Assembly: GCA_903895845.1 (NCBI GenBank)
Contig: CAITVK010000109.1
Coordinates: 25,080 to 89,079, forward strand
DNA: 64,000 nt
From: an uncultured Chitinophagaceae bacterium
GTDB taxonomy: Bacteria; Bacteroidota; Bacteroidia; Chitinophagales; Chitinophagaceae
Reading direction: 5' to 3'
Shown one piece after another: positions 32,419-63,526 of the stretch; position 1 is the stretch's first letter; every line of letters begins with the position of its first letter. The translations under genes and the position numbers were made by a program. The notes under the pieces were generated by a model. That model was not told where the DNA came from. It saw only the letters and a list, made by a program, of their open reading frames with translations, and searched no databases.

Positions 32419-35181
32419 CTATTCCATATTCTGCCTTAACCATCTTTCTACTTCTTCTAAAGTCATGCCTTTTCTCTTGGCATAATCTTCTACTTGGTCG
32501 GGCTGAATTTTGCCTACACCATAATATTGACTCTGAGGATTGGCGAAATACCATCCGCAAACTGATGATGCAGGATACATAGCCAAGCTTTCGGTAAGCG
32601 TGATGCCAATGCTTTCGGTTACATTCAGCAAGTCGAATAACTTATACTTTTCTGTGTGATCTGGACAAGCAGGATAACCAGGTGCCGGACGAATACCTTG
32701 GTACTTTTCATGAATCAATTCATCATTGGTCAAATGCTCATCGGTGGCATAACCCCAATATTCCTTCCTTATTTTTAAATGGAGACACTCTGCAAAAGCC
32801 TCCGCCAATCTATCAGCAAGCGCTTGTAGTATAATCTTGTTGTAATCATCCAAGTTTGCTTCGAAAGCTTTTATGTGCGGCTCAATACCATCAATGGTAA
32901 CGGCGAAAGCACCTATAAAATCAGTCGTAAGTGGTAAGTCGTGAGTCGTAAGTTCTTTAGAAGCTCCAAGTGGTTTTATAAAATCTGCTAGAGAGATGTT
33001 TGGTTGACCCGGGGCTTTTTCTATTTGCTGACGAAGGAACTCAAGATTAATTGTTTCCTTTTCTTGACTTGCGACTAACGACTTATGACTTACGACTACT
33101 GTATCCCCCTCACTTCCTGCTTCCCAGAAACCAATAGTTCCCTTTGCTGTCAACCATTTCTCAGCAATAATTTTATCTAATAAATCATTCGCATCGTTGT
33201 ACAACTTAGTTGCTTCTTTACCTACAATCTCATCAGAAAGAATAGCAGGGAAGTTTCCGTGCATTTCCCAAGCAATGAAGAAAGGCTTCCAGTCAATGTA
33301 TTGTCTTAGTTCGTTCAAATCGAAATCTGCAAACACTTTAGTACCTGTAAACTGAGGTTTCACTGGTTGAAAAGAAGCCCAATCTAAGTTTACTTTATTG
33401 GCTAGAGCCTTGCTGTAAGGCAAATAGTTTTTGTGAGATTTCTTATTGTCAAACCCATGTTTCAGCTTAGTATATTCGCCATAAGTCTGTTCCAAGAAAG
33501 CTGGTTTGCTATCATTGCTCAATAAACTACCCGCAACAGTAACGCTACGGCTAGCATCTAATACATGAATAACGCCATTGCCATACTCAGGCGCAATCTT
33601 CACAGCAGTGTGCATTCGGCTAGTGGTGGCACCACCAATTAGCAATGGTTGTTTCATTCCGCGACGCTTCATTTCTTTAGCCACGTGAACCATTTCATCG
33701 AGCGAAGGTGTAATTAATCCACTCAATCCAATGATATCAGCATTGTGCTGAATGGCGGCATCCAGTATTTTATCGGTAGGAACCATTACACCTAAGTCGA
33801 TAATATCATAGCCATTACAACCCAAAACCACCCCAACGATGTTCTTACCAATATCGTGAACATCACCTTTCACGGTAGCCAATAATATCTTGGCAGCACC
33901 AGCACCTTCTTGATTGATTGTACCAGCGGCAATATGCGCCAAACGACGTTCTTCTTTTTCAGCTTCTATGTATGGAGTTAGCACTGCCACACTTTTTTTC
34001 ATCACCCTAGCACTCTTTACCACTTGTGGCAAGAACATTTTACCAGCACCGAATAAGTCGCCCACAAAGTTCATTCCGTCCATCAATGGCCCTTCTATCA
34101 CATCCAAAGGTTTAGGATATTTCAGCCTAGCCTCTTCTGTATCCGCATCTATATATTCAGTAATACCATTAACCAAGGCGTGTTTCAAGCGCTCTTCCAC
34201 CGAAGCATCACGCCACTTTTCATCTCTTTCCTGCACCTTACCCTTTGCTTTTACTGTCTCGGCGAAGGCAATTAGCTTCTCTGTAGCTTCGTTGTTATCG
34301 TTGTTTCTATTAAGAATTACATCTTCGCAAAGTTCTTTTAAGCTAGGTTCTATCTCATCATACACTACCAACTGACCAGCATTAACAATACCCATATCCA
34401 TACCCGCCTTGATGGCATGGTATAAGAAAACAGAGTGCATTGTTTCGCGCACATGTTCATTGCCACGGAAAGAGAAAGACAGGTTACTAACGCCGCCACT
34501 AATCTTTACCAAAGGATGCCTTTGCTTGATGATGCGTGTGGCTTCAATGAAATCTACACCATAGTTATTGTGTTCTTCTAGACCTGTTGCAATGGCAAAA
34601 ACATTAATATCGAAGATGATATCTTGCGGATCGAAGCCAACTTGCTCGGTCAATATCTTGTAGGCTCTTTCCGATATTTCTACTTTGCGCTCTAGGGTAT
34701 CGGCTTGGCCTTTTTCATCAAAAGTCATTACAATTACCACTGCGCCATACGCTTTACAGATGAAGGCATGCTCAATAAATTTCTCCTCCCCTTCTTTCAT
34801 AGAGATAGAGTTTACGATGCAACGCCCCTGAATACATTTCAATCCTGCTTCAATAATCTCGAACTTAGAGCTATCCACCATGATAGGTATCTTGGCAATA
34901 TCGGGTTCGCTTTGCAATAGATTGATGAAAGTGGTCATGGCTTTTACCCCATCCAACAAGGCATCATCCATGTTTACATCCAATATCTGCGCACCATTCT
35001 CTACTTGTTGACGAGCAACTGAGAGGGCTTCTTCATACTGATTATTCAAGATAAGTCTGGCAAACTTCTTACTACCCGTAACGTTGGTTCGCTCGCCCAC
35101 ATTGACAAAGTTTGTCTCCGGACGAATAATTAAAGGCTCTAAACCACTCAATCTCAAAAAAGGTTTTATCGTTGTACTCAT
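32419..35181 (-). CDS. metH: Methionine synthase, pterin-, B12- and activation-domain subunit (split MetH, C-terminal part)
   Basis: [20 protein letters not shown]...[30 protein letters not shown]...[15 protein letters not shown]. Confidence 0.95.
32923..32953. repeat. Heptanucleotide tract inside metH (GTCGTAA orientation on + strand)
   Basis: GTCGTAA GTGGTAA GTCGTGA GTCGTAA GTT; encodes [12 protein letters not shown]. Confidence 0.85.
33065..33099. repeat. Heptanucleotide tract inside metH (TTACGAC orientation on + strand)
   Basis: GACTTGCGACTAACGACTTATGACTTACGACTAC; encodes [12 protein letters not shown]; inverted relative to 32923-32953. Confidence 0.85.
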
Positions 35182-35191
35182 GTTATTTGTT

Positions 35192-35745
35192 TTTTGCCAC
35201 AAAGACGCAAAGGCTCAAAGTGGCACAAAGAAAAGAAGAAGGAAAGGGAAAAGAAAGAAAGGGAATTAAATAAGAGGATTTATAGAACCATTCTTTTTAT
35301 TCCTTCTTTGATTAATGGGACATTAAAGTTTATTATAAATCCCAGATGCTTCTCTGATAAACGCAAATAACTTAATAATTGTGCTTCCCAGACCTTATGA
35401 TATTCTTCTTGTGCTTTTAATTCAATTATTACTAAATCATCTACTAAAATGTCTAATCTCAATCCTTCGTCAAAAACGACATCATCGTATATTATTGCTA
35501 CCTCTTTTTGCTTTACAAAGGCAATATCCCTTTTATATAATTCGTAACAGAAGCAAGCTTCATACACTTTCTCCAACAATCCTGGCCCTAATGCTTTATG
35601 AATATGATAAGCAATATCTACTACTTGCTTGCCAACCCATTCTCTGCGTTCATCCAGTTCGTCATACATTTCTTATTTTCATTTTCTTCTTTTTTCTTTT
35701 CTTAATTACTTAGTGCATCTTCGAGTCTTTGCGTCTTGGTGGCAA
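35192..35745. mobile_element. Putative element: GxxExxY gene flanked by ~39-bp imperfect inverted repeats
   Basis: Left TTTTGCCACAAAGACGCAAAGGCTCAAAGTGGCACAAAG; right (reverse complement) ATTTGCCACCAAGACGCAAAGACTCGAAGATGCACTAAG; purine/pyrimidine-rich tracts just inside. Confidence 0.65.
35280..35669 (-). CDS. GxxExxY protein (PDDEXK-like nuclease family)
   Basis: AYHIHKALGPGLLEKVYEACFCYELYKRDIAFVKQKEVAIIYDDV...LRLDILVDDLVIIELKAQEE; GLLEKVY is the GxxExxY motif. Confidence 0.93.
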   Translation of the reverse strand: MYDELDERREWVGKQVVDIAYHIHKALGPGLLEKVYEACFCYELYKRDIAFVKQKEVAIIYDDVVFDEGLRLDILVDDLVIIELKAQEEYHKVWEAQLLSYLRLSEKHLGFIINFNVPLIKEGIKRMVL

Positions 35746-35758
35746 ATCTTCCTAGTGG

Positions 35759-36775
35759 TTAAACCAACTCGGATTCCAGTACTGGCAATCTTCTTGGCTC
35801 TATTGTTCTTACGTGGTCTGCTATGTGTTTAATATGATCTGGGGTGGTGCCGCAGCAGCCGCCTACTATGTTTACCCATCCATTCTGTGCCCACTCTTCT
35901 ATGAAGTGTGCTGTTTGGTGTGGTTGCTCATCATATTCTCCCATTGCGTTTGGCAAACCTGCATTCGGATAGGAAGAAGTATAGCAAGCTGCTATGCCAC
36001 TCAACTCCTCAATATGTCCACGCATTTCTTGTGCACCCAAAGCACAGTTCAAGCCAATACTCAATGGATTTGCGTGCTTAACTGATATGTAGAAAGCTTC
36101 TAAAGTTTGTCCAGAGAGTGTTCTTCCGCTAGCATCAGTGATGGTGCCACTAATCATTATTGGCAATTCTTTTTTACCTCTGAAGAATTGTTTTATGGCA
36201 AAAATGGCAGCCTTTGCATTCAATGTATCAAAGATTGTTTCTACCAATAGCACATCTACACCACCTTCTACCAAGCCTTTTATCTGCTCGGTGTAAGCGG
36301 CAACTACTTCATCAAAAGTTACTGCACGATAACCAGGATTATTTACATCGGGCGATAGGCTCAATGTTTTATTCAATGGCCCAATAGCCCCTGCTACAAA
36401 CTTTGGCTTAGTATCTTCTGGGTGAAGCACCTTATATTGCTCAATCGCTTTTCTAGCACATTGGGCAGAAGCTACATTCATTTCGTAAGCCAATGCCTGC
36501 ATATCGTAATCTGCTTGCGCAATAACGGTACTACTAAAAGTATTGGTCTCTACAATGTCAGCACCTGCTTCAAGGTACAAAAGATGTATTCCTATGATTA
36601 CTTCAGGCTTAGTAATGCTCAATAAATCATTATTACCCTTCACATCTAGGTGCCAGTCTTTAAACCTTTCTCCTCTATAATCAGCCTCTTCAAGCTTATG
36701 GCGTTGAATCATTGTGCCCATTGCACCATCAATTACCAATATCCTTTTCTCTAATTCTTCGTGTATCAAACTCAT
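35759..36775 (-). CDS. metH: Homocysteine S-methyltransferase subunit of split MetH (N-terminal part)
   Basis: [12 protein letters not shown]...[20 protein letters not shown]...GLNCALGA...[18 protein letters not shown]. Confidence 0.95.
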
Positions 36776-36810: not shown

Positions 36811-36962
36811 AAATGCCACAAAAGCACAAAGAAAGTAAGAAACACAAAGTATTTATTATAGAAATGAAAAAGAGAAAAAGAAGAAAACCACCGTTTCTTT
36901 TTCTCTTTTTATGCTTGCCTGCTTTGTGTCAATTTAAGCCTTAGCGTCTTTGTGGCGAAACT
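36811..36962. repeat. ORF-less relative of the GxxExxY element (MITE-like inverted repeat)
   Basis: AAATGCCACAAAAGCACAAAGAAAGTAAGAAACACAAAG ... CTTTGTGTCAATTTAAGCCTTAGCGTCTTTGTGGCGAAA with purine-rich interior. Confidence 0.75.
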
Positions 36963-63410: not shown

Positions 63411-63526
63411 TTTCGCCACAAAGACCCAAAGGCTCAAAGTGGCACAAAAAGGAAAAAGAAGCGTAAGGGAATTCTTTGTGCTACTTTCTGTCTTAGTGCC
63501 TTAGTGGCAAAAGACTTGGTGGCAAG
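63411..63526. repeat. ORF-less relative of the GxxExxY element (MITE-like inverted repeat)
   Basis: TTTCGCCACAAAGACCCAAAGGCTCAAAGTGGCACAAAAAG ... CTTTGTGCTACTTTCTGTCTTAGTGCCTTAGTGGCAAAAG. Confidence 0.8.

Follow-up and report, generated by a model that had tools for sequence, protein, structure and literature searches.

The block between the two metH genes of the window (the whole 64,000-nt stretch of DNA analysed here) appears, on balance, to be a palindromic mobile element in its gene-bearing form. Its sole protein, a putative GxxExxY nuclease, would act as in RAYT/REP(IN) systems, with a PD-(D/E)XK enzyme replacing the Y1/HUH transposase. The parts of this reading that were observed directly were the unit itself, its gene-less copies, the coupling of protein subtype to arm sequence, the presence, absence or replacement of whole units at orthologous slots, and the purifying selection acting on the protein.

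The 129-aa ORF of the block matched the profiles PF13366 (123.9 bits) and TIGR04256 GxxExxY (132.1 bits) and was located, like both bordering metH genes, on the minus strand (Table 1). A repeat search of the window found two 64-nt arms around this ORF, which were 75% complementary and had 426 nt between them; the homopurine/homopyrimidine tracts were included within these arms. The initial annotation had described the ORF as bracketed by inverted repeats and had placed the block between the homocysteine-methyltransferase and cobalamin/pterin genes; both points were confirmed. It had also described the element as inserted between the two halves of metH. Division of metH by the insertion was ruled out, since the metH genes were likewise separate, with short gaps only, in G003, G011, G014 and G016. 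The split is older and is present in relatives without the insert, so the element took a pre-existing gap.

Table 1. Features of the metH slot and gene-less palindromes of the same repeat family (positions in the window).
Feature	Position	Strand	Remarks
GxxExxY gene, predicted PD-(D/E)XK fold	35280..35669	-	129 aa; conserved D73, E83, K85 and GxGxxExxY
Arm 5' of GxxExxY gene, GCCACCAAGACGCAAAGACTCGAAGATGCACTAAG plus purine tract	35683..35746	-	matching place C109:60787-60825
Arm 3' of GxxExxY gene, GCCACAAAGACGCAAAGGCTCAAAGTGGCACAAAG plus purine tract (read inwards)	35193..35256	+	
Homocysteine S-methyltransferase gene bordering the slot (first half of split metH)	35759..36775	-	PF02574
Pterin/B12/activation-domain gene bordering the slot (second half of split metH)	32419..35181	-	PF00809/B12-binding/Met_synt_B12
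TTTAACCACTAGGA directly outside arm, overlapping methyltransferase stop codon	35750..35763	-	sequence comparison
Gene-less palindrome, same repeat family, upstream of methyltransferase gene	36815..36956	.	matching place C109:62001-62038
Gene-less palindrome, same repeat family, left arm 95% match	63415..63508	.	matching place C109:88491-88527

The flanks of genes were scored by comparing the 300 bp upstream with the reverse-complemented 300 bp downstream and taking the best local match. The score of the window locus (211) was higher than that of all 116 neighbouring-gene controls of the same loci (maximum 166) and exceeded that of 126 of the 127 controls taken from other genomes. When 118 ORFs of the window genome (G000, 4.0 Mb) were scanned blind, four of the five top flank scores belonged to GxxExxY or four-helix-bundle genes, and the fifth belonged to the metH methyltransferase ORF adjoining the GxxExxY element.

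The left arm of the element had 38 matches in the window genome. Many of these, where the places were read, were arms of gene-less palindromes of approximately 110-130 bp with the same two arms, and the loop often held a purine tract like that of the gene-bearing copy. Therefore, the block was the gene-bearing member of a repeat family and not an isolated gene with ends of its own. The earlier description of the repeats as the terminal inverted repeats of the gene was thus correct as to their inverted arrangement and incorrect in treating them as private to the gene. The pattern CCRCWRAG-N1-4-CRCWRAG was found up to 223 times per genome, versus 0-2 times per genome for the reversed-pattern control. 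Its counts were higher where GxxExxY was present (p=0.005 overall); outside the genus this tie was weak (p=0.054), which speaks against GxxExxY as the mover. Rfam gave no match at the repeats, and tRNAs were the only RNA families found in the window. A gene-less palindrome was also found in the trpG-trpD gap of the window genome (C62:10797-10921, L027), where G012 and G020 carry a GxxExxY gene.

Inverted flanks were studied across gene families and genomes. The window genome contained five PF13366 genes and five PF05635 genes (23S rRNA IVP, four-helix bundle). Inverted repeats were readable around 9 of these 10 genes, the exception starting 43 bases from a contig end, and the repeat sequence varied from gene to gene. 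The test loci were chosen as best protein matches, and scores were compared with those of neighbouring genes of the same loci (n=116, median 80, 95% level 127, 99% level 165) by one-sided Mann-Whitney tests. The median score was 116 for GxxExxY genes of relatives (n=33, p=2.8e-6), 117 for IVP genes (n=32, p=1.5e-8) and 75 for ORF6N genes (n=30, p=0.77). This ORF6N negative control ruled out that flank repeats are a general property of small accessory genes. Replication with 79 GxxExxY loci of other genomes gave a median of 126 versus 79 in 127 controls (p=2e-17). The comparison of GxxExxY flanks suggested in the initial annotation revealed enrichment of inverted flanks. Approximately 45% of GxxExxY loci scored above the 95% control level and some had no recognisable arms; inverted flanks of these genes are common, not universal, which counts against the mobile-element reading. 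GxxExxY genes of relatives lacking these repeats had been named as an observation that would count against the element; the exact repeat was indeed usually absent, but often another, subtype-specific inverted repeat was found instead. The IVP genes (L014-L018 and L106-L134) had inverted repeats of another kind, with units of approximately 7 nt (TTATGAG, TTAGTAA, GGGAAAGA), and were located outside rRNA genes.

The arm motif followed the protein subtype. In the dominant GPGLLESAYEECL subtype, the arms shared AACCRCARAG-NN-CRCARAG in Bacteroidota, and such arms were also found in loci labelled Spirochaetota, Planctomycetota, Ignavibacteriota, Balneolota, Acidobacteriota, Cyanobacteriota and a Methylobacter bin; several of these come from metagenome bins and may have been mis-binned. 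GFQEVIYQRAL proteins were accompanied by GTCTGAACC...GATTT arms, GFPENIYQRAL proteins by AATGATT units, ESIYESCF proteins by CACATAG units and YKDALE proteins by CACTAATG or CACGAATT units; the EKVYEACF type, to which the window protein belongs, had CCACAAAGACG or CCACAACGG units. The CRCWRAG unit pointed inward 558 times and outward 164 times in 162 GxxExxY loci, and only 12 occurrences in total were found in 34 IVP loci. For pairs of less than 65% identity, arm similarity correlated with protein identity (Mantel r=0.42, reached in 0 of 1000 permutations), shared ancestry being not fully separated in this comparison. Joint inheritance of the whole element contributes to this coupling and could explain part of it. 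That the unit is conserved across phyla points to a constraint that would tie the protein to the arm. The two arms of a locus also co-varied: in 9 of 11 slots, arms matched better within a locus than across species (p=0.021). At the metH slot of G012 (L085 / L272), the GxxExxY arms were expanded on both sides into long tandem series, AACCACAACGGCAGAACGATACAACGG.

At two orthologous slots of one genus, the element behaved as a unit that was present, absent or replaced by another subtype with its own arms. In a tree of 159 proteins, the GxxExxY proteins of the metH slot within the genus came from at least three separate clades, namely G002/G004/G006/G007, G000/G001 with the nearby G005/G012, and G008. 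G010 carried a decayed relative, 46% identical to the window protein; this gene (L077 / L263) is a pseudogene with in-frame stops and has near-perfect 40-bp arms on either side, which argues that upkeep of the arms does not require an intact gene in the same copy. Elsewhere, the metH slot held a lone arm (G017), an IVP gene (G033) or an ORF6N-domain gene without clear inverted repeats (G015, L087). The second slot, between the membrane-fusion and pump genes of an RND system, contained the GFPENIYQ type with AATGATT arms in G001, G007, G010 and G012, and a relative whose arms were weak or lost in G006 and G011. In G003, G004 and G005, this slot was occupied by the ESIYESCF type with its CACATAG arms. 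The empty orthologous sites whose search had been proposed in the initial annotation were found at both slots: the metH slot was empty in G003 and G011, and the RND slot was empty in the window genome, where the metH slot is occupied.

On a three-gene species tree, the states of the RND slot were scattered. The sisters G004 and G006 differed, as did G005 and G012, and G000 with its empty slot stood beside the occupied G010 and G001. The different elements of G004 and G006 were bordered by flanks that were near-identical up to the stop codon. Outside the present metH element, apparent remnants of an older AACCAC-type arm were found in G000 and G001. As judged by sequence comparison, TTTAACCACTAGGA in the window is probably such a remnant, this arm type being present at the metH slot of G002, G004, G006 and G010. 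Long residence also occurs: related elements were kept at a hydantoinase-gene slot and, across genera, at an IVP slot. Several slots had one and the same orthologous element in different species or genera and look stable, not freely mobile, which speaks against the mobile-element reading. Comparison of filled and empty slots by eye revealed no clear target-site duplication.

Residues D73, E83 and K85 and the GxGxxExxY motif were invariant in 44 sequences, and the AlphaFold2 model of the window protein had a pLDDT of 95.7 and a pTM of 0.88. The alignment and the model thus point to a predicted PD-(D/E)XK core fold with putative D...ExK catalytic residues. The solved folds closest to the model were lambda exonuclease, LHK-Exo and Cas4, with weak E-values of 0.011 and above; the homing endonuclease I-Ssp6803I ranked 50th in the fold search. 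The GxxExxY protein is under strong purifying selection: dN/dS was 0.03-0.11 in most GxxExxY pairs and 0.24 in one very close pair with four changes. For IVP pairs, it was 0.08-0.15. A role as a defence gene was rejected, as PADLOC gave weak matches only (Cas4, E 0.0019). Plasmid-borne spread was also rejected, a relative of the window protein being found in just 4 of 72,556 plasmid records.

The closest known systems are compared below. RAYT genes are reported to be always flanked by two inverted REPs, with trees of protein and repeat that match (PMC2817692). As in REP/REPIN and RAYT systems (PMC2817692, PMC3116915), a small gene was found here between two inverted repeat copies, many gene-less repeat copies were dispersed in the genome, repeat and protein diversified together, and palindromicity was kept while the sequence changed. 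However, RAYT is a Y1/HUH transposase (PF01797), whereas the window unit encodes PF13366/TIGR04256 only, and REP hairpins are short and GC-rich with a GTAG/CGTC-type tag, whereas the arms described here are long and A/G-rich with degenerate units of 7-9 nt. Both systems occur side by side in the same genomes. Since the structural features of RAYT/REP were present and its enzyme was not, the element is RAYT/REP-like in its working and not a member of that class. The analogy with RAYT/REP drawn in the initial annotation was accordingly well supported by the flanking inverted repeats, the gene-less copies, the empty sites and the dependence of motif on subtype. The IVP genes of like architecture and the exchange of one element for another at a slot had escaped that annotation.

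The IVS of 23S rRNA with its IVP/S23 protein (PF05635; PMC4990558) is similarly a single small ORF between terminal inverted repeats, and PF05635 genes located between other genes in the present genomes have this architecture as well. PMC4990558 reports an idea of Ralph and McClelland, according to which IVS elements were mobile. The window element differs in encoding GxxExxY and not the PF05635 IVP, which is carried by sister elements in the genome, and in being located between protein genes, outside rRNA. Pairs of IS and MITE likewise comprise a gene-bearing copy and short gene-less copies with common terminal inverted repeats, but the gene-bearing window copy encodes neither a DDE nor any other known transposase, a target duplication was not seen, and the arms differ among closely related species. 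PD-(D/E)XK homing endonucleases such as I-Ssp6803I share the nuclease fold, and re-occupation of slots is homing-like; however, there is no intron or intein at the window element. Among open-licence PMC papers, a literature search turned up none that connected GxxExxY or intergenic IVP genes with dispersed inverted repeats. The GxxExxY palindromes look like small mobile DNA elements of a kind not yet described, spread across several bacterial phyla.

In the proposed mechanism, the arms of degenerate 7-9-nt units can fold as a long hairpin, and the GxxExxY nuclease would recognise its cognate arm unit and process the hairpin-bearing DNA by cleavage. Copies of the element and, in trans, of its gene-less derivatives would then enter short gaps that separate co-transcribed genes, at times landing on a slot where an element of this kind is already present. 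A homing-like alternative, considered unlikely, is that the nuclease cuts related-hairpin slots without its gene and that repair from the gene-bearing copy overwrites them; swaps would then prevail over jumps to new sites, and the arms would supply the homology. Repeated unit-wise replacement at one slot (the sisters G004 and G006 at the RND slot, with near-identical flanks), the remnants outside the present arm at the metH slot of G000 and G001 and the difference in content of the trpG-trpD gap are consistent with it. However, the elements swapped at the RND slot had unrelated arms (AATGATT and CACATAG), which rules out arm homology as the driver of this swap; allelic exchange through the flanking genes may account for it. 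Preferred insertion gaps explain no less well than homing why elements whose arms are unrelated replace each other at one slot.

Hitchhiking would mean that another enzyme, such as a Y1/RAYT transposase, moves the palindromes, or that these arise by template switching; GxxExxY and IVP would then be host or cargo genes located inside them by chance. Y1_Tnp genes were present in 33 of 41 genomes, including the window genome, and some GxxExxY genes had no arms, as this explanation would allow. However, the Y1_Tnp (RAYT-like) genes examined (L337-L356), which served as a positive control for the flank method, mostly had their own GC-rich REP-like hairpins, unlike the GxxExxY arms; therefore, RAYT was disfavoured as the mover of the GxxExxY palindromes. 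Moreover, hitchhiking, if random, leaves the specificity for two families, the subtype-arm coupling and the absence of the effect in ORF6N unexplained, and it was judged improbable. The least probable explanation was spread at the RNA level as in the 23S rRNA IVS: the element would be co-transcribed with the host operon, RNase III would cut the arm stem, and an RNA intermediate would spread by means of a host reverse transcriptase. It is in line with the shared architecture of the PF05635 IVP genes, with the terminal inverted repeats and RNase III excision of IVS elements (PMC4990558), with the similarity of the PF05635 protein to the retroelement accessory protein Avd (PMC10053308) and with pairing of the arms in the predicted RNA of the window element (z -3.5). 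In addition, 75% of GxxExxY genes (p=0.0015) and 81% of IVP genes (p=0.011) had the same direction as both neighbours, the share among all genes being 55% where the window genome was sampled, but this bias may reflect selection on operons, and the fold of GxxExxY is exonuclease/Cas4-like.

Returning to the element moved by its own nuclease, a wider proposal can be put forward tentatively: GxxExxY nucleases and, separately, IVP proteins could each be dedicated to moving one of two unrelated superfamilies of palindromic mobile elements, in which each protein subtype would read its own short repeat code and no known transposase chemistry would be involved. If true, this would provide a role for two widespread families of unknown function, GxxExxY and the four-helix-bundle IVP, would suggest where a class of short dispersed repeats found in Bacteroidota and other phyla comes from, and would extend the REP/RAYT principle to a different enzyme.
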